A stretch of 64,000 bases of DNA, from NCBI RefSeq assembly GCF_013705725.1, contig NZ_CP055481.1, positions 3,472,001 through 3,536,000 on the forward strand, read 5' to 3'. Shown here one piece after another: positions 21,903 through 31,119 of this stretch; the stretch's first letter is position 1, and each line of letters begins with the position of its first letter. The stretch is from Klebsiella sp. RHBSTW-00484. GTDB lineage: Bacteria > Pseudomonadota > Gammaproteobacteria > Enterobacterales > Enterobacteriaceae. Below the pieces are notes generated by a model that was given only the letters and a program-made list of their open reading frames with translations, was not told where the DNA came from and ran no database searches. Made by a program: the position numbers and the translations under genes.

Positions 21903-22736
21903 GTGGTGTTGATGTGTGATGCGACCGGTCTGTCGCAACGTCGTGCCTGCAGGCTGACAGGTTTGTCCCTGTCGACCTGCCGTTACGAAGCGCAGCGTCC
22001 GGCATCGGATGCGCATTTATCCGGGCGCATCACCGAACTGGCGCTGGAGCGCAGGCGTTTTGGTTACCGCCGCATCTGGCAGCTGCTGCGCCGCGAAGGG
22101 CTTCATGTTAATCACAAGCGAGTATACCGGCTCTACCATCTGAGTGGACTCGGCGTAAAACGCAGACGTCGTCGTAAAGGGCTGGCAACAGAACGTCTGC
22201 CGCTGCTCCGCCCGGCAGCGCCGAATCTGACCTGGTCGATGGATTTTGTCATGGATGCGCTGGCCACCGGTCGCAGGATCAAGTGCCTGACCTGCGTGGA
22301 TGACTTCACGAAGGAGTGCCTGACGGTCACCGTTGCCTTCGGGATTTCAGGCGTGCAGGTCACGCGTATTCTGGACAGCATTGCGCTGTTTCGTGGCTAT
22401 CCGGCGACGATAAGAACCGATCAGGGCCCGGAGTTTACCTGCCGCGCGCTCGATCAATGGGCCTTTGAGCATGGCGTGGAGCTACGGCTCATTCAGCCCG
22501 GCAAGCCGACACAGAACGGATTTATTGAGAGTTTTAACGGACGCTTTCGCGATGAATGCCTGAATGAACACTGGTTCAGCAACGTCAGCCATGCCAGGAA
22601 AACCATCAGTGAATGGCGTCAGGATTATAACGAGTGCCGCCCGCACTCCACGCTGAATTATCAGACGCCGTCTGAGTTTGCGGCGGGCTGGAGAAAGGGT
22701 AATTCTGATAGTGAAGGATCCGACATTACTAAGTGA
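21903..22736 (+). CDS. IS3-family transposase OrfB (DDE integrase core)
   Basis: A 277-residue catalytic part in the -1 frame relative to OrfA, so it is normally made as an OrfAB fusion. It shows the HTH_21 segment ([20 protein letters not shown]) and the rve core with the DDE acids in [18 protein letters not shown] and [16 protein letters not shown]. The frame is open upstream of the first ATG, so the true junction with OrfA is not fixed. It appears intact and the element may be active. Confidence 0.92.
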
Positions 22737-24719: not shown

Positions 24720-24922
24720 CAGTCCCTCCACATTTTCTGTAAGAAGGTTTTGTCCGCGCGGGGCTCCTTTTCTGACTCGGGTAAAAACACGCTAACCTCC
24801 CACAATACAAAATCACGGGATAGGCACTTCTCTACCTGGTAGTTCGCCTTTCGGTAGCGCGCCACCAGCTCCAGTGCCTGCGACTCCGTCAAACCTGTGT
24901 GCTGAAACCAGCTTCGCTTCAT
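24719..24922 (-). CDS. Small phage protein
   Basis: A 67-residue protein (MKRSWFQHTGLTESQALELV...) of unknown function. A conserved-looking opening TGLTESQALELVARYRKANY suggests a short helical domain. It overlaps the LexA-like gene by 4 bases and DUF968 by 3, so it belongs to the same early operon. Confidence 0.65.
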   Translation of the reverse strand: MKRSWFQHTGLTESQALELVARYRKANYQVEKCLSRDFVLWEVSVFLPESEKEPRADKTFLQKMWRD

Positions 24923-25311
24923 AGCTGGGCCTCATACAGTCGGATGAACTCAATGGCACGTTCGCGTGCCCCCGGTTCGTTATGAACCATTTCCTGCAGC
25001 AGTTGCACGGCGAGCGATGGCTCTTTATGACCGACGATAGAAATACCGCGGGACATATTAGGGGCGATGGTGATGACCCCTTTTCTGCGCAATGCGCGAA
25101 GGTGTTCAGCGGCCGCGTTCGGAGACGCAGCGCCAATCAGATCTGACAGCTCTCTGGCCGTAGGCGGGTAACCGTGTTTTGTGATGAACGCAACGAGGAG
25201 ATCAAACACCTCCTGCTGGCGTGGGGTCAGTTTCTGGAATGACGAAAAACCAGCGTTGTCGTTATGACTGCCGGTCTGATTTGATTCTGGTTTTGCGATG
25301 GTATGCGCCAT
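24919..25311 (-). CDS. LexA-type DNA-binding protein without peptidase domain
   Basis: A 130-residue protein starting MAHTIAKPESNQTGSHNDNA at 25311, 6 bases behind GGAGAG. Residues 30-95 match the winged-helix domain of LexA closely (LTPRQQEVFDLLVAFITKHG, then SPNAAAEHLRALRRKGVITI). The recognition helix keeps the Ser-Pro-Asn-Ala residues and one of the two Glu residues of E. coli LexA. The S24 cleavage and dimer domain is absent, replaced by a short helical tail. It may bind SOS boxes or a related phage operator. It follows dinI and the putative antirepressor. Confidence 0.82.
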   Translation of the reverse strand: MAHTIAKPESNQTGSHNDNAGFSSFQKLTPRQQEVFDLLVAFITKHGYPPTARELSDLIGAASPNAAAEHLRALRRKGVITIAPNMSRGISIVGHKEPSLAVQLLQEMVHNEPGARERAIEFIRLYEAQL

Positions 25312-25351
25312 GGTTTCTCTCCGTGGCGCAGCAGGTATAGGTTGTTCAGGC

Positions 25352-25609
25352 CTATGACGGGAGTGTAACAGAACCCGGCGGAACCTGGTAACCAACTCCA
25401 GACTTCGCCTTTTCTATCATTTGCGCAAATAACGAGAGAGTCCCCACTATCTCATCTTGCTGTAGTGGCATAAACGAAATTGTATCACCACGACGGTACA
25501 TCAAAGCGCGATCACATACCGGAAACGACCTGAGGCGGGCAACGATAACCCCATCATCGCACCTAATTACTACATAGCCGGTGTTCGGCATTTTTTGTTT
25601 TTCGCCCAC
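25352..25609 (-). CDS. Small protein in dinI operon, putative antirepressor
   Basis: An 85-residue protein translated from GTG at 25609, 7 bases behind AGAGGA. It starts with a short polar leader, then MPNTGYVVIRCDDGVIVARL. In Gifsy prophages the gene directly after the phage dinI copy encodes an antirepressor of about this size that inactivates a non-cleavable repressor after DNA damage. Position, size, the SOS box upstream and the type of repressor in this phage all agree with that role. Sequence identity to known antirepressors could not be tested. Confidence 0.55.
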   Translation of the reverse strand: MGEKQKMPNTGYVVIRCDDGVIVARLRSFPVCDRALMYRRGDTISFMPLQQDEIVGTLSLFAQMIEKAKSGVGYQVPPGSVTLPS

Positions 25610-25653
25610 TACAAAATCCTCTCAAAAAACCCGGTCAATCGCCGCGCTGAAAC

Positions 25654-25887
25654 TCAATAAAACCAGTCGTCGGCGCTTTCCCACGTTTCCTGTAGGATCT
25701 CTTCTATCGTTTCTCTATCGCCGTCAATACCGCCCAAAACACTCAATCCGTCAGCCCCTGCGCGACGAACTGATAATTTGCATTTCTCGTATTTTTGGCT
25801 TAACCGCCGCAGCAATTCCACTTCCAGCGCAAGCTCAACACCATCAGGCAGTGGCTTCTTGCGGTCGATTGTGATTTCAACTCTCAT
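25654..25887 (-). CDS. dinI: DinI-like SOS protein
   Basis: A 77-residue DinI-family protein, starting MRVEITIDRKKPLPDGVELA at 25887. It has the family layout: an N-terminal beta strand, a helix with LEVELLRRLSQKYEKCKLSV, a VRRAGADGLSVLG strand and an acidic C-terminal helix (DRETIEEILQETWESADDWF) that contacts RecA. Family members modulate RecA filament stability. It is the first gene behind a near-perfect SOS box and begins the group with the putative antirepressor and the LexA-like protein. Confidence 0.9.
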   Translation of the reverse strand: MRVEITIDRKKPLPDGVELALEVELLRRLSQKYEKCKLSVRRAGADGLSVLGGIDGDRETIEEILQETWESADDWFY

Positions 25888-25906
25888 AGTAACCTCGATA
25901 TCGATA

Positions 25907-25926
25907 TACTGTATGAATAAACAGTA
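25907..25926 (-). promoter_or_regulatory. LexA (SOS) box upstream of dinI
   Basis: TACTGTATGAATAAACAGTA is a full CTGT-N8-ACAG palindrome with the extended TA flanks, 20 bases upstream of the dinI start codon. It should put dinI and the following genes under host LexA control. Confidence 0.92.
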
Positions 25927-26128
25927 TATCGATAAGCACGAATTTTCAACCCTTTGCAGGTAAGTTTCGTTAGGGCAATGCAACAGGCATCTGAAGTTTT
26001 TGCAGCATGTTGTCCCCTACGCTGTTTTTTTGTTCAAATAGCTGAAATTATGTATTATACCCTCAAAAAACCAAACTATTTTAGCAAAAACAATTAGTTA
26101 GTTATCTTGCACTTTCTTTAGTAACTCG

Positions 26129-26156: not shown

Positions 26157-26207
26157 CAAAAATTTACACTTATGCATTTATTTTGCGACGCACATAGCGA
26201 GAAAATT

Positions 26208-27599
26208 ATGACTGAAAAAACAACGCCAACAGCAGACTTTAGTCCTAGTAAAAGATTTTTTGTAAGCATGCTGACTAGGGATATTGAACTTAACGATGCC
26301 ATTCTTGATCTCCTCGACAATTGTGTAGATGGAGCTTTGCGTACTAAAAAAGACCAACAAAATGTATTGAAGCCATATAAAGGTTTTTATGCAAAACTTA
26401 CAATCAATAAAGATGAATTTATAATCGAAGACAATTGTGGAGGCATCCCTAAAAGCTTCCGAGAATATGCTTTTAAAATGGGGCGCCCTCATCAAAAAGA
26501 AGAAGAAAATGAAGGTACAGTTGGTGTTTATGGTATAGGAATGAAAAGAGCCATATTTAAAATGGGTAGAGATTGCTCGATACAATCTAATAATCCAGAT
26601 GGAGCATTCTCTGTGGGTATAACACCTGATTGGATAGATGGTGATGGCTGGAAAATACCTATGCACGAGAGCGATTTTGATAAAAGCGCACCAACTGGCA
26701 CAACTATAAAAATAAAAAAACTTCATTCTAATGTGGCACAAAAATTTAGCGAAAGCACATATCTTAGCGATCTATTCTTGCAAATAAAACATTCATTATC
26801 TTTCATCATTCAAAAAGGATTTAACATTGAATTAAATGGTATTGTCGTTGAACACAACCCTATAAATATTATAACCGACAACACACAAATCGAGCCATAT
26901 ATATATAAAGCTAAAATAGATGATGTTGATGTTGACTTGATTGTTGGATTCTATAAAAATTTAGAAGATGAAAATGATGATGCGTTAGAAAAAAGAAGCT
27001 CTGATGACGCGGGTTGGACTATCATTTGCAATGACCGCGTTGTGTTATATTGTGATAAAACCCATCTAACTGGATGGGGCTTTGCGAATGTACCAAGGTT
27101 CCATACACAATTTATAGCAATTTCAGGTGTTGTTCGATTTACTAGTAAGAATCCTGAAAAACTACCAATAACAACTACAAAACGAGGTGTTGACCTTAGC
27201 TCCACGTTGTACAATGACGTACGTAATAAAATGATTGAAGGTATGATGCATTTCATTCGCTTTACCAACCAATGGAAAGGCGAACACCTTGAAGAAGGGA
27301 AGAAACTGCTTAAATCAGCTCAATTATATGAAGCTCAAACTCTATTTGAAGTTGATCCGGAGTCAGTCGCTGAAGAAAAGAAAAATAACTGGTCAAATCC
27401 TAATAGAAACAAAAATGAATGGCGATATACACCGAAACTACCTACACCAGTGAAAAAAAACACGACTGTACGAATAATCTTTACACGAGAAAAAGAAGAC
27501 GTAAAAATTTTATCTAGATACTTCTTTGGGCATGATGATGCAAGCCCTTCTGATGTAGGGATGGAGTGCTTTGATTCCGTGATTGAAGAGGTGAAGTGA
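26208..27599 (+). CDS. GHKL/MORC-like ATPase, first gene of cargo module
   Basis: A 463-residue ATPase of the GHKL (Hsp90/MutL/MORC) superfamily. The ATG at 26208 has a GAGA ribosome site; an ATG 36 bases upstream is possible. Bergerat motifs: N-box DLLDNCVDGA (Asn38), G1 EDNCGGIP (Asp75), G2 GVYGIGMKRA (106-115), then PTGTTIKIKK. The 260-330 part (WTIICNDRVVLYCDKTHLTG) resembles the ribosomal-S5-fold transducer domain of MutL/MORC proteins. No nuclease motif is seen. Its stop overlaps the next start (TGATG). Prokaryotic MORC-like ATPases are known companions of restriction-modification genes. Codon use is AT-rich and alien to the phage. Confidence 0.85.
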   Translation: MTEKTTPTADFSPSKRFFVSMLTRDIELNDAILDLLDNCVDGALRTKKDQQNVLKPYKGFYAKLTINKDEFIIEDNCGGIPKSFREYAFKMGRPHQKEEENEGTVGVYGIGMKRAIFKMGRDCSIQSNNPDGAFSVGITPDWIDGDGWKIPMHESDFDKSAPTGTTIKIKKLHSNVAQKFSESTYLSDLFLQIKHSLSFIIQKGFNIELNGIVVEHNPINIITDNTQIEPYIYKAKIDDVDVDLIVGFYKNLEDENDDALEKRSSDDAGWTIICNDRVVLYCDKTHLTGWGFANVPRFHTQFIAISGVVRFTSKNPEKLPITTTKRGVDLSSTLYNDVRNKMIEGMMHFIRFTNQWKGEHLEEGKKLLKSAQLYEAQTLFEVDPESVAEEKKNNWSNPNRNKNEWRYTPKLPTPVKKNTTVRIIFTREKEDVKILSRYFFGHDDASPSDVGMECFDSVIEEVK

Positions 27600-28588
27600 T
27601 GTCTGGACAATATATCCCCTATCATCTAAGACATAATAAATCAATTGATAGAGAAATTTTCCTTGAAAGCCTAAGTCTATTAGCCAAAAGATTAAATATT
27701 CAAGAATATACATATATAGGTTTTGGCGGTCCAATGCTTGAGGATTTTAGGATCATGCATAACCGAGTAGCCCTCTCTGATATGATTTCGCTCGAAGAAC
27801 AGGCGTCAACTCATATCAGACAGAAATATAATCTACCTTATAATTGTATTGATTGTAAACTAATATCAGCTCACGACTTTATCCTTGATTATAATTTTTC
27901 TAAACCTTCAATAACTTGGTTAGATTATGCATCTCCCAAAGGAATACAAAATGACCTAGATGATATTCAACTTCTAAGTACTAAAGTAAGTTCACTCGAC
28001 ATTTTGAAGGTCACCTTTCCCATAAACCCCGGTTCTTACTATCAGCGGAGGGTTGGAGAAAGTCTAGATGATTTTAAAGAAGCTTTCATACAGTCATTAA
28101 AATCATTCCTTGGGAAGAAGTACCTTGACTTCAACCTTCAAATACTGAATACAGATCTCTCGGACAGTAAAATTAAAGCTCTCTTGACACGAATTATTAC
28201 GAACGCATTTAGATCAGCAATCGAACGAGGACTTTCTGGACGTAAGGATAAACTTCAATACTATCCATTATCATTAAATCAATATAATGATGGTAGCCAC
28301 ACAATGTTGACAATCTCAGGATTCTTCGCCTCGGAACCAGAATATTCTGAGTTGTCCGAAGCATGTAACTTTTCTACTTGGAAATTTTTCTCTGCCAATT
28401 GGGAAGACGTTCAAGAAATAGCCATACCAACGCTAACAATTAAGGAAAAAATAAATTTAGATAGTAAACTGCCTGATCAAGAAGCCTACCAGGCAGCTGC
28501 TGAAGAGTTTTCGTTAAATGAAAACGAAAGAGATAACTATTTTAAATATTATAGATTATACCCTAACTTCCAAAGAATTATGGTTTAA
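27599..28588 (+). CDS. Cargo protein with methyltransferase-like Rossmann motifs
   Basis: A 329-residue protein coupled to the GHKL gene: its ATG at 27599 overlaps the GHKL stop and GAGGTGA lies 4 bases upstream. The opening MSGQYIPYHLRHNKSIDREI is followed by YIGFGGPMLEDF (39-50), like motif I of class I methyltransferases, then an acidic MISLEEQ (62-68) and WLDYAS (107-112) where motifs II and IV would be. The C-terminal half is helical. Substrate unknown; it could also be a degenerate fold with another activity. The last 33 bases overlap the convergent C5 methyltransferase gene. Confidence 0.72.
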   Translation: MSGQYIPYHLRHNKSIDREIFLESLSLLAKRLNIQEYTYIGFGGPMLEDFRIMHNRVALSDMISLEEQASTHIRQKYNLPYNCIDCKLISAHDFILDYNFSKPSITWLDYASPKGIQNDLDDIQLLSTKVSSLDILKVTFPINPGSYYQRRVGESLDDFKEAFIQSLKSFLGKKYLDFNLQILNTDLSDSKIKALLTRIITNAFRSAIERGLSGRKDKLQYYPLSLNQYNDGSHTMLTISGFFASEPEYSELSEACNFSTWKFFSANWEDVQEIAIPTLTIKEKINLDSKLPDQEAYQAAAEEFSLNENERDNYFKYYRLYPNFQRIMV

Positions 28589-29710
28589 ATATTCGGGCTG
28601 TACTCCGTTATTATTCAATTCGTTGTACAGCCCCTTTAATATGTATTCGGCAACTAATGGTGACACACTGTTCCCTATTTGTCTGAAACTATGCCATTTG
28701 GTTCTGTGGAAACGAAACCAATCTGGAAAACCTTGTAATCTTGCAGCTTCTCTAGGAGTAATCACCCTTGCATAATGAGGATGAATAGGTCTAACTGCTT
28801 GAAAACTACCTTTATCACTTGCAGTTCCAGCCCTTAGTGTTGGACAAAAACCATCTGGATCTAATCGGGTAGACCTAGAAATTTTATCTGTCTCCCCAAA
28901 AGATAAGGCACCATAGCGATCTTGGACTACTGAGCTGTGTAGTGTTCCTGTACATCCAGATATTATATTCTTTTTTAACTTAGCGATTGATTCCTTATCG
29001 CCAACATTAGGTGGTATTTGCCCCCAAAGTTTTTCGTAAAAAACACCTTTTCTATCTTTTAGAATCGGCCTCCAACTCTCAGATTCAGATTGCCAGGTAG
29101 CATCGATGATGTCTGGTAATCCATGCAAAGCATCTTTTACAGTAACTTGAGTAACCATTTTAGGCATAAACATTTCATATGACATATCAAGTTTTAACGT
29201 TTTTCTTACACCGATGAAAAAATATCTAGTCCGTACAGTTGGAGCACCGTAGTCGGATGCTTTTACCTTGATGGGCTCGAGAATATTATAATCATCGCTT
29301 ACCATACTAAACGCTTTGTTTCTAATTTCGGAATACTTATCTTGCATAATACCTGGGACATTTTCTGCCAAAAAAAATAATGGCTGCAACTCTGAAACCA
29401 GACGATAAAAGTGCATATAGAGTTGATTCCTACTATCATCAGGATTTCCTTTCCCGATAGAACTAAATCCTTGGCACGGTGGGCCACCAATAATGCCATC
29501 TATAGAAATATCATCTTTAAGAAGTCCCTTAATTATATCCGCATTTAGCAAAGAAACATCTTCTTGGATGTGCAAGCTAGTAGGGAAATTAATTGCATGA
29601 GTTTCTATTGCATGCGGATCAATTTCAACAGCCATTTTAACATCAAACCCAGCACGAGCAGCTCCAAGGCTTAGCCCTCCGACACCAGAAAATAAATCTA
29701 TTACATTCAT
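28556..29710 (-). CDS. DNA cytosine-5 methyltransferase
   Basis: A 384-residue Dcm/HhaI-type enzyme that methylates carbon 5 of cytosine in DNA. All core motifs are present: I DLFSGVGGLSLG (5-16), IV GGPPCQGFS with catalytic Cys79, VI ENVPGI, VIII DYGAPTVRTRYFF, IX RVITPREAARLQGF and X QIGNSVSPLVAEYI. The target recognition domain lies about 190-290, so the site cannot be predicted. It is convergent with the GHKL gene pair but runs in the same direction as the phage early genes, so lytic transcription could express it. No cognate endonuclease was recognised. Confidence 0.95.
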   Translation of the reverse strand: MNVIDLFSGVGGLSLGAARAGFDVKMAVEIDPHAIETHAINFPTSLHIQEDVSLLNADIIKGLLKDDISIDGIIGGPPCQGFSSIGKGNPDDSRNQLYMHFYRLVSELQPLFFLAENVPGIMQDKYSEIRNKAFSMVSDDYNILEPIKVKASDYGAPTVRTRYFFIGVRKTLKLDMSYEMFMPKMVTQVTVKDALHGLPDIIDATWQSESESWRPILKDRKGVFYEKLWGQIPPNVGDKESIAKLKKNIISGCTGTLHSSVVQDRYGALSFGETDKISRSTRLDPDGFCPTLRAGTASDKGSFQAVRPIHPHYARVITPREAARLQGFPDWFRFHRTKWHSFRQIGNSVSPLVAEYILKGLYNELNNNGVQPEYLNHNSLEVRV

Positions 29711-29865: not shown

Positions 29866-30069
29866 TCATTTGTTGGTCTCTGCGATCGGTTTAATTAAGT
29901 CCAGCAGAAGCTGACGGCGCATTTGCTCCGCAAAACGACGTTTTTCGGTGCCTTTGTGATAGCACTCGGTTTTCCCAACGACCCACACCGATGGGGTTTC
30001 ATGCAGAAGCTTTTGCTGTGGGCCATCTTTCGTTATCACGGTACCGGTATGGGTTTTAACGATGCTCAT
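29866..30069 (-). CDS. Small early phage protein
   Basis: A 67-residue protein (MSIVKTHTGTVITKDGPQQK...) of unknown function. It has a beta-rich first half and a basic helical tail (KRRFAEQMRRQLLLDLIKP). It overlaps the gene before it by 4 bases (ATGA). It is the last early-operon gene before the cargo module. Confidence 0.65.
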   Translation of the reverse strand: MSIVKTHTGTVITKDGPQQKLLHETPSVWVVGKTECYHKGTEKRRFAEQMRRQLLLDLIKPIAETNK

Positions 30070-30332
30070 TTGGTTACTCCTGAGTTCTTCCGATAACTAA
30101 ATCTGTTGAGGTCAAAATCGATGGTTGCCCGTTGGTCTCGGAATAATCCAAGTCGCCCATAGCGAATGACCTTTCCGGAATTCGCAGCAGCACGGAAATG
30201 TTTACCAACTGAGTCACGGCACATATGAAGCTCGGAGCAGGCCTCTTTCACCGTCAGTCGGCCTTTCGTCAGTGTCAACTCGATAATTTTCTGAACGCTC
30301 GCCTGTTGTTGTTCACGCGATTTGTTAGCCAT
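30066..30332 (-). CDS. Small helix-turn-helix protein
   Basis: An 88-residue protein starting MANKSREQQQASVQKIIELT at 30332. The centre (TKGRLTVKEACSELHMCRDSVGKHFRAAANSGKVIRYGR, in pieces) has the spacing of a winged helix: helix, recognition helix with RDSVGKHF, and a short wing. Its start lies inside the end of the ParB-like gene, overlapping by 8 bases. Probably a DNA-binding early regulator; target unknown. Confidence 0.68.
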   Translation of the reverse strand: MANKSREQQQASVQKIIELTLTKGRLTVKEACSELHMCRDSVGKHFRAAANSGKVIRYGRLGLFRDQRATIDFDLNRFSYRKNSGVTK

Positions 30333-31119
30333 GGTTAGGCTCCTCCCCCAACACCCAACGCAGCGCGTCGGCGTAATCGCCGCTGGCGCCTTCAAGGGCT
30401 TTTGTAATTTCCTTGCGGGTTTTTAGCCTCAGCTTTTCGCCCCCGAGAATCTGGCGCTGCCGGCGCGATTTCTCATGTCCCGAAACTCCCTCTGCTACCG
30501 CTTCAAGCTGCTTGACTGTCTCCCGCTGCTGCTCTGGAGGCATATCGACGAGCTGGCGCGCTTGCGTGACCGTTACTTTCCCGGATTCAACAGCAGCCTG
30601 AACGGCGTGTGTGGCATCCAGGAGCGCTACGGTCGACTGGACGGTTTTAACGCTACAGCCGAAAAGCAAAGCAATATCACTTTCGTCATGCCCGTATTCC
30701 ATCTGCTGAACCATTTTTTTAGCCCGACCCAGGGGGGTATCTGGCTGAGTTATCTCGTTTTCACTGACCATATATTTGGCCATTTGAATTGCAGATCCGC
30801 GCTTAGCAATACCAGGGACCGGCCAAGGCTCCAGCCCTTCTCGCTTACGCCTGGTGTTTGCCTCTGTGGCGTTCTTCACTCGCTGCCGCCCTGCCACCAC
30901 GCTCGTTTTTCCAGACTCTGGGTCTTTCCACACGATAATGGGTTCGATTACACCGAGTTCCATGATGTTGAGGATCACCGATTCATTCAGCGGTAGGTGT
31001 ACCCGCTCGTCATATAGCGGGTGTGATGTATCGGTTACCAAATGCAGATTTTCCGGTTCGAAAAACAGAACGTTGCTTTTGCCGCTAGCGCCGTATGCGT
31101 CGATTGAATTTTTAGCCAT
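30325..31119 (-). CDS. ParB/sulfiredoxin-fold DNA-binding protein
   Basis: A 264-residue protein starting MAKNSIDAYGASGKSNVLFF at 31119, 7 bases behind GGAGGT. The N-terminal ParB domain has ESVILNIMELGVIEPIIVWK and VVAGRQRVKNATEA; the second part holds a helix-turn-helix (HDESDIALLFGCSVKTVQST). This is the architecture of ParB-type partition proteins, but no parA is present and the prophage is integrated, so it more likely acts as a DNA-binding or CTPase regulator of phage replication. Confidence 0.82.
   Translation of the reverse strand: MAKNSIDAYGASGKSNVLFFEPENLHLVTDTSHPLYDERVHLPLNESVILNIMELGVIEPIIVWKDPESGKTSVVAGRQRVKNATEANTRRKREGLEPWPVPGIAKRGSAIQMAKYMVSENEITQPDTPLGRAKKMVQQMEYGHDESDIALLFGCSVKTVQSTVALLDATHAVQAAVESGKVTVTQARQLVDMPPEQQRETVKQLEAVAEGVSGHEKSRRQRQILGGEKLRLKTRKEITKALEGASGDYADALRWVLGEEPNHG

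Follow-up and report, generated by a model that had tools for sequence, protein, structure and literature searches.

A recurring cassette of a MORC-type ATPase, a Methyltransf_35 protein and a cytosine methyltransferase in a Klebsiella prophage: a candidate anti-phage system

What might three AT-rich genes, encoding an ATPase, a closely coupled partner and a DNA methyltransferase, do in a lambdoid prophage when no nuclease is recognised among their products? We addressed this question in a stretch of 64,000 nucleotides from Klebsiella sp. RHBSTW-00484 (contig NZ_CP055481.1, positions 3,472,001 to 3,536,000 of the forward strand), hereafter the window, to which all plain coordinates refer. The cassette (26208-29710) encodes a GHKL ATPase of the MORC type, a protein of the Pfam family Methyltransf_35 (MT35) and a cytosine-5 (C5) DNA methyltransferase. 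On the basis of gene context, we propose, with a probability of roughly 0.58, that it is a mobile, methylation-guarded anti-phage cassette in which the MORC ATPase and MT35 take the place of the restriction enzyme. The features on which the argument depends are the following.

26208..27599, forward strand: GHKL ATPase of MORC type, 463 residues; HATPase_c_3 E = 9.2e-9; phrog_20521 over residues 1-463; AlphaFold pLDDT 86
26307..26321, forward strand: N-box of the ATPase, D34 to N38, with Asp where Glu is usual; D34, D37 and N38 each in 69 of 69 relatives
26430..26444, forward strand: G1 box of the ATPase, DNCGG, residues 75-79; D75 and G79 in 69 of 69 relatives, C77 in 68 of 69
27012..27044, forward strand: MORC-type motif of the ATPase, S5 region, residues 269-279; pattern of PMC2292703 in 65 of 69 relatives and in 0.36% of shuffled sequences
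27180..27182, forward strand: Lys 325 of the ATPase, candidate phosphate-contacting lysine of the S5/transducer region; 69 of 69 relatives
27599..28588, forward strand: MT35, Methyltransf_35 (PF20553), 329 residues; Pfam E = 4e-88 over residues 1-328; AlphaFold pLDDT 93.4
27713..27745, forward strand: candidate S-adenosylmethionine (SAM)-binding motif I of MT35, residues 39-49, after the first core strand; Y39 and D49 in 99 of 99 relatives, G43 in 98, G44 in 93
27917..27928, forward strand: candidate active-site motif W-L-D-Y of MT35, residues 107-110, at the end of the fourth core strand; W107 and D109 in 99 of 99
28556..29710, reverse strand: C5 DNA methyltransferase, 384 residues, convergent with the other two genes; DNA_methylase E = 3.4e-62; solved near relative 3g7u, 736 bits
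29471..29482, reverse strand: PPCQ motif of the C5 enzyme, presumed catalytic, read in the translation

An earlier note on this DNA had described three open reading frames in an AT-rich segment of 3.5 kb within a prophage, a start-stop-coupled partner with Rossmann methyltransferase-like motifs and a complete cytosine-5 methyltransferase, and our analysis bears out this description. The coordinates were confirmed together with the drop in GC content, which is 0.333-0.390 over seven 1-kb intervals between 26001 and 30000, against 0.496 at 25001-26000 and 0.529 at 30001-31000. The ATG of MT35 begins on the final base of the ATPase stop codon, an arrangement of translational coupling, and the C5 and MT35 genes overlap by 33 bp tail-to-tail.

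Analysis of related loci revealed that the ATPase and MT35 genes recur as a unit. Scans seeded with MT35 gave 80 genome loci (the best 80 of 87) and 48 viral loci, a set of 128 obtained with a requirement for short exact peptides; it includes many metagenome bins and a number of near-identical viral loci. The ATPase lies directly upstream of MT35 in 125 of these 128 loci; two of the three misses begin at MT35 on a contig edge (L118 and L133) and the third has its ATPase on the other strand (L084). Measured in 124 loci, the distance from the ATPase stop to the first conserved MT35 motif is 4-16 codons. Seeding with the ATPase instead gave 68 viral loci, which overlap the 48 mentioned above, and 63 of them carry MT35. 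Among 299 Pseudomonadota genomes MT35 was detected in three, with the ATPase adjacent in the same three and one further weak ATPase match without a neighbouring MT35; among 369 genomes of the host's class, a sample sharing two genomes with the former, three strong ATPase matches adjoin MT35 (one of them at a decayed locus) and a fourth, weak match has no MT35 next to it. After dereplication, which kept 65 of 92 loci, pairwise identities correlated at 0.84 between ATPase and MT35 and at 0.48 between MT35 and C5. The genome contigs that bear MT35 carry labels from 15 phyla, many of them being metagenome bins. At one locus (L022:12403-14751) a second, diverged MT35-GHKL pair lies on the opposite strand past the C5 gene, so that one C5 gene is flanked by two pairs.

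The companions of the ATPase-MT35 pair fall into few kinds. A C5 gene, counted whenever a profile matched below E = 1e-8 at a distance of up to about 7.5 kb, is near the pair at 96 of the 128 loci, 20 of which also have a Vsr-cluster gene; 23 loci are embedded in DISARM (one of them also with C5) and nine have neither. Under a stricter rule, the ATPase, MT35 and a strong C5 match occur within 3.5 kb in 92 of 133 loci. Since the host genome of 6.9 Mb holds only four C5 genes, the close linkage to C5 at most loci is not due to chance. Vsr, DrmA, DrmB, DrmC, DrmMI, portal and gpA were named from one representative per cluster, those of DISARM by PADLOC.

In the DISARM loci the pair lies between drmMI and drmA, in the order drmMI, ATPase, MT35, drmA, drmB; the 24 such loci that include plasmid locus L004 have an MmeI-like drmMI cluster in 23 cases and a drmC cluster in 20. 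Three of them (L042, L050 and L077) have one extra gene, of about 400-450 codons, between MT35 and drmA. On the MT35 tree of 115 rows the DISARM label changes three times, compared with 22 times when shuffled, which indicates that recruitment into DISARM was rare. The pair is also optional in DISARM, since 56 plasmid records have DrmA and only two have MT35, one of those in DISARM. Similar pairs mostly keep similar C5 enzymes (median 0.82 in 313 comparisons, near-copies included), and exchange of the enzyme under a similar pair is rare, with ten locus pairs, the best being L013 and L023 (MT35 69%, C5 34%), where the L023 enzyme lies two genes away. These differing C5 enzymes, together with the adenine-type enzyme in DISARM, hint that recognition by the pair is not tied to a single fixed sequence.

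A sister arrangement has a longer GHKL protein of about 550-620 residues with a variable C-terminal part. It stands alone with C5 in five viral loci (L202-L206), and seven genome loci (L012, L013, L014, L016, L019, L021 and L026) have it next to the full cassette; its C-terminal part matches Hypoth_Ymh in L016 and resembles PD-Lambda-5_A in L014, and the MORC motif is present in 12 of 12. This arrangement suggests that effectors can be swapped behind the GHKL engine. In one viral locus (L134:1-6523) the pair is followed by a protein of 1133 residues with PLD and SNF2 helicase domains, and C5 is replaced.

The location of the cassette in phage genomes is in agreement with a defensive function. 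The interval between the P2-like portal and gpA-type genes holds it in 21 of the 48 viral loci, and the same position was found in E. coli strains 222 and EC05. This interval is a hotspot of anti-phage systems for which Rousset et al. (PMC9122126) give 1,650 arrangements, and the cassette may be listed among them. Another 18 viral loci have lambdoid-type neighbours, and in Sakai prophage Sp10 the cassette sits between a NinB-type gene and the replication genes. In inovirus PfAC20 (L003:280-3711) all three genes are present as ORF1-3 on one strand, with identities to the window of 28.5% for MT35, 32.2% for the ATPase and 43.3% for C5, and a further short C5 gene is ORF9. A search of 5,426 E. 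coli genomes gave 254 with a DNA match; in 172 of them, O157:H7 Sakai and EDL933 included, the match spans 80% or more of the cassette, with an identity of about 84%. Among 60 spread E. coli rows we also detected a second type (66%) annotated with the full set of three genes, one row at 71% and eight with C5 only. Neither of the outcomes that would have refuted the earlier note, a lack of co-occurrence or assignment to an ordinary replication or housekeeping function, was obtained: the three genes occur together in phages and chromosomes, and the pair in DISARM and in the P2 hotspot.

The three genes also appear to be maintained. Approximate dN/dS values between the window and E. coli O157:H7 Sakai were 0.046 for the ATPase, 0.047 for MT35 and 0.080 for C5 (dS 0.86-1.07); judged from these sequences, purifying selection acts on all three, and with a gene order recurring elsewhere the association appears to be more than chance. 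In a decay check of 135 loci, three loci (L005, L066 and L135) had a broken pair but still a C5 gene, other incomplete genes lying at contig ends. A deletion in E. coli O157:H7 F6294 (L218:4103-5862) removed C5 and most of MT35, the ATPase being annotated as intact. The pattern fits a role of C5 as guard gene, though the cases are too few to weigh. On the psymA plasmid of Sinorhizobium meliloti (L005:2599-7798) the ATPase and an interrupted MT35 are about 2.5 kb apart, with other open reading frames between them.

The ATPase matches HATPase_c_3 beyond the Pfam cut-off, and a protein search with it returned 5,370 relatives. An upstream ATG at 26172 is a possible alternative start; relatives such as the Sakai protein have 463 residues. 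The earlier note had credited it with all Bergerat motifs, and the motif residues are indeed found in 68-69 of 69 relatives, but the N-box carries D34 instead of the usual Glu in 69 of 69, at a position where the catalytic Glu normally stands. Lys 325 may contact phosphate. The fold of the model matches Hsp90, SMCHD1 and MORC2 alike, and sequence comparison with solved MORC proteins gave weak matches (MORC4 at E = 0.83, MORC3 at E = 0.039 and 0.06 with a profile). MORC proteins have been defined by a GHKL domain and a GhXhhpXXRhl motif in the S5 domain (PMC2292703); by sequence the window ATPase conforms to this definition, the control for the motif being shuffled sequences only. This makes the assignment in the earlier note more specific, and the same paper had already placed MORC genes beside cytosine methylases and Vsr.

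MT35 scores 296.2 bits against the Methyltransf_35 profile, whose curated cut-off is 27, and belongs to a named but uncharacterised Pfam family. The AlphaFold model predicts a class I methyltransferase fold, and the conserved motifs are candidates for SAM binding and catalysis. Its best structural matches by Foldseek and VIA-align include RNA methyltransferases such as Trm1; in the Foldseek ranking small-molecule methyltransferases stand nearly as high as the RNA enzymes, and beyond residue 271 the model was barely probed by fold comparison. No match in the PDB was obtained for MT35 by sequence or profile. A protein search bounded by exact words gave 61 relatives.

The C5 enzyme matches many MTase_II profiles of PADLOC (version 2023), and its PPCQ motif is what we take to be the catalytic site. 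The statement in the earlier note that no nuclease is visible holds for the three proteins, in which none was recognised by Pfam, PADLOC, NCBIfam or PHROGs; six overlapping open reading frames (66-187 residues) in the interval were not part of this search. A hidden nuclease was not suggested by the fold matches of the ATPase or MT35 either, the C-terminal ends of both models being barely tested. Of the components of a type II restriction-modification (R-M) system, the DNA methyltransferase is therefore present and a cognate restriction endonuclease was not recognised, and since no nuclease profile was found in the three proteins we class the cassette as R-M-like rather than R-M.

Comparison with known systems places the cassette near several of them. 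Iyer, Abhiman and Aravind described in 2008 prokaryotic MORC genes beside cytosine methylases and Vsr, a minority without helicase (PMC2292703). Their neighbourhoods share with our cassette a GHKL and S5 ATPase with the MORC motif and cytosine methylase and Vsr neighbours; they differ in the helicase, present in about 70% of them and absent from the window cassette, and the MT35 partner, the DISARM embedding and the phage hotspot are not described in the portions of that paper covered here. DISARM, which holds additional auxiliary genes (PMC9142583), accommodates the pair, in its class with DrmMI, between drmMI and drmA in 23 of the 128 loci, whereas the window cassette, whose annotated neighbours are phage genes, lacks drmA, drmB and drmC. 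VcSduA, a GHKL-Shedu protein (paraMORC3) of Vibrio cholerae, is a proven anti-phage protein with a fused nuclease (PMC12137116). A GHKL ATPase is likewise its engine, but VcSduA is a single gene with its own DUF4263 nuclease, and no C5 or MT35 partner is described for it in the portions of that paper covered; in the window ATPase, Pfam detected no DUF4263-type C-terminal nuclease up to E = 1.

Another published study (PMC8011034) concerns a HATPase_c_3 gene that has a different partner and lies near C5 methylases. That HEF_HK-type system resembles ours in a HATPase_c_3 gene with a fixed partner, adjoining C5 methylases and Vsr; its partner is receiver-like, while that of the window is methyltransferase-like, and HEF_HK identity was ruled out, as Pfam found no such domain in the window ATPase up to E = 1. 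PD-lambda-5 is likewise a prophage-borne, methyltransferase-linked defence (PMC9519451), with a C-terminal part similar to that of the longer sister GHKL, but the window ATPase and MT35 match none of its profiles. MzaB of the MZA system is also a GHKL-type ATPase of a defence system; identity with it was rejected, the match reaching only E = 0.083 and 11.2 bits against a cut-off of 850. As far as the literature listings show, we found no paper describing MT35, its pairing with the ATPase or the three-gene module, nor any in which the function of a prokaryotic MORC ATPase is put to the test; the Sakai locus tags occur in two papers, in one of which they are microarray entries. What appears to be new is the MT35 partner and the DISARM embedding, which we did not find in print, MORC next to C5 methylases having been published in 2008. 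The suspicion that this might be a little described system seems to hold for MT35 and the pair but not for the MORC-methylase neighbourhood.

The pair is read as R-M-like because it stands beside C5 and often Vsr, or within DISARM, in a defence hotspot and without a recognised nuclease. In the mechanism that we propose, the C5 methyltransferase would mark resident DNA, and the MORC-type ATPase would close, as an ATP-driven clamp, on unmarked DNA. In the least certain step, the clamp might then place or activate MT35, which would act on incoming DNA or on RNA such as tRNA, so that infection stops; DNA compaction driven by MORC could account for part or all of the block. Fold and conservation are what point to MT35 as the putative catalytic partner. 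A more daring version, to which we give little credence, is restriction without cutting, in which the MORC ATPase would recognise DNA unmethylated by C5, clamp and compact it, and MT35 would add to nucleic acid a second methyl mark that locks this state or blocks translation.

The surroundings of the cassette bear on these alternatives. To its left the lambdoid prophage has tape measure, major head protein, portal and terminase genes, and directly before it HNH, LexA-type DNA-binding and DinI-like proteins. After it come ParB-like, P-like loader, CII-like and repressor-family genes, an exonuclease and an integrase. The C5 gene is co-directional with the phage replication genes and the pair is opposed to them. 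Promoter-like sites (18, against 14.7 in shuffled sequence) and terminator-like sites (2, against 2.4) are near expectation. At 24919-25983 the LexA-type protein is matched at its DNA-binding domain only, next to the DinI-like protein, and a 277-residue open reading frame at 21903-22736 (forward strand), between the terminase and HNH genes, presumably encodes an IS3-family transposase.

These neighbours, with ParB-like, P-like and DinI-like genes in a replication-side early region, would suit an ordinary role in phage replication, repair or DNA topology, the methyltransferase being nearby by chance. We consider this very improbable, given that the cassette occurs in lambdoid and P2-like phages, an inovirus, DISARM and chromosomal loci, and that here it forms an AT-rich island whose pair is transcribed against the early genes. 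It is also conceivable that C5 and MT35 only modify DNA, the GHKL clamp aiding MT35, and that they shield phage or host DNA from restriction or alter expression. The predicted class I fold of MT35 with its candidate cofactor motifs, the lack of a recognised nuclease in the three proteins, the frequency of C5 genes in phages (676 of 50,697 phage records match that of the window) and the position of the pair next to the modification enzyme drmMI in DISARM all agree with this idea. A shield, however, would not need an ATPase strictly coupled to MT35, and the Vsr-cluster genes at 20 loci, the non-phage DISARM and chromosomal loci and the anti-phage hotspot do not favour it, so that it appears unlikely, although the least so of the alternatives.

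Alternatively, the pair could be a toxin silenced by C5 methylation, in an addiction or abortive infection system that hits the host cell and not the incoming DNA. The sister arrangement, in which C5 accompanies a longer GHKL that ends in a part like PD-Lambda-5_A or Hypoth_Ymh, is compatible with this, as PD-lambda-5 has been termed a compacted system of R-M and abortive infection (PMC9519451), and so is the presence of RNA methyltransferases such as Trm1 among the best matches of MT35. Toxicity of the pair is nevertheless conjectural, no result here relates the sister effector domain to MT35, and small-molecule methyltransferases nearly equal the RNA enzymes in rank. We regard it as doubtful, and place it behind restriction without cutting.

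Several observations weigh against the methylation-guarded anti-phage cassette that we prefer. PADLOC returned no defence family up to E = 1 for the ATPase, and likewise none for MT35; we found no close precedent in the literature for a methyltransferase as restriction effector, and a protective phenotype of the cassette is predicted from gene context. At nine of the 128 loci, C5 and DISARM are both missing from the neighbourhood; the four of their genomes that were searched had 3, 5, 5 and 13 C5 matches elsewhere, and a C5 mark acting in trans is possible. The neighbourhood of two cyanobacterial loci that we inspected (L010 and L011) consists of respiratory-chain genes and is not a defence island. 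Relatives of the ATPase (5,370) far outnumber those of MT35 (61), which exact-word limits may explain in part, and many of them may have other partners, as is seen in the five of 68 ATPase-seeded viral loci with C5 and a longer GHKL. Locus L056 is ambiguous, with an intact pair and only a partial C5 match upstream, and the scarcity of decayed loci has been mentioned above. The proposal of a defence module, R-M-like or otherwise, whose effector would be the pair and whose self mark would come from C5, remains the one best supported by context, but it has to be amended in that C5 is not universal, as shown by these nine loci and by the DISARM copies with their adenine-type DrmMI.

The cassette represents a small three-gene version of the MORC systems, without helicase or recognised nuclease, and natural copies in E. 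coli P2-like prophages make it testable in K-12. If it is protective, infection would have to be stopped by a methyltransferase serving as a weapon or by silencing that does not cut DNA, and either would widen the meaning of restriction. In one DISARM lineage the pair would likewise be predicted to have a functional role. If non-cutting silencing were true, it would provide a prokaryotic counterpart of the eukaryotic MORC silencing tied to DNA methylation, portable among C5 cassettes, P2-like and lambdoid phages, an inovirus and DISARM.

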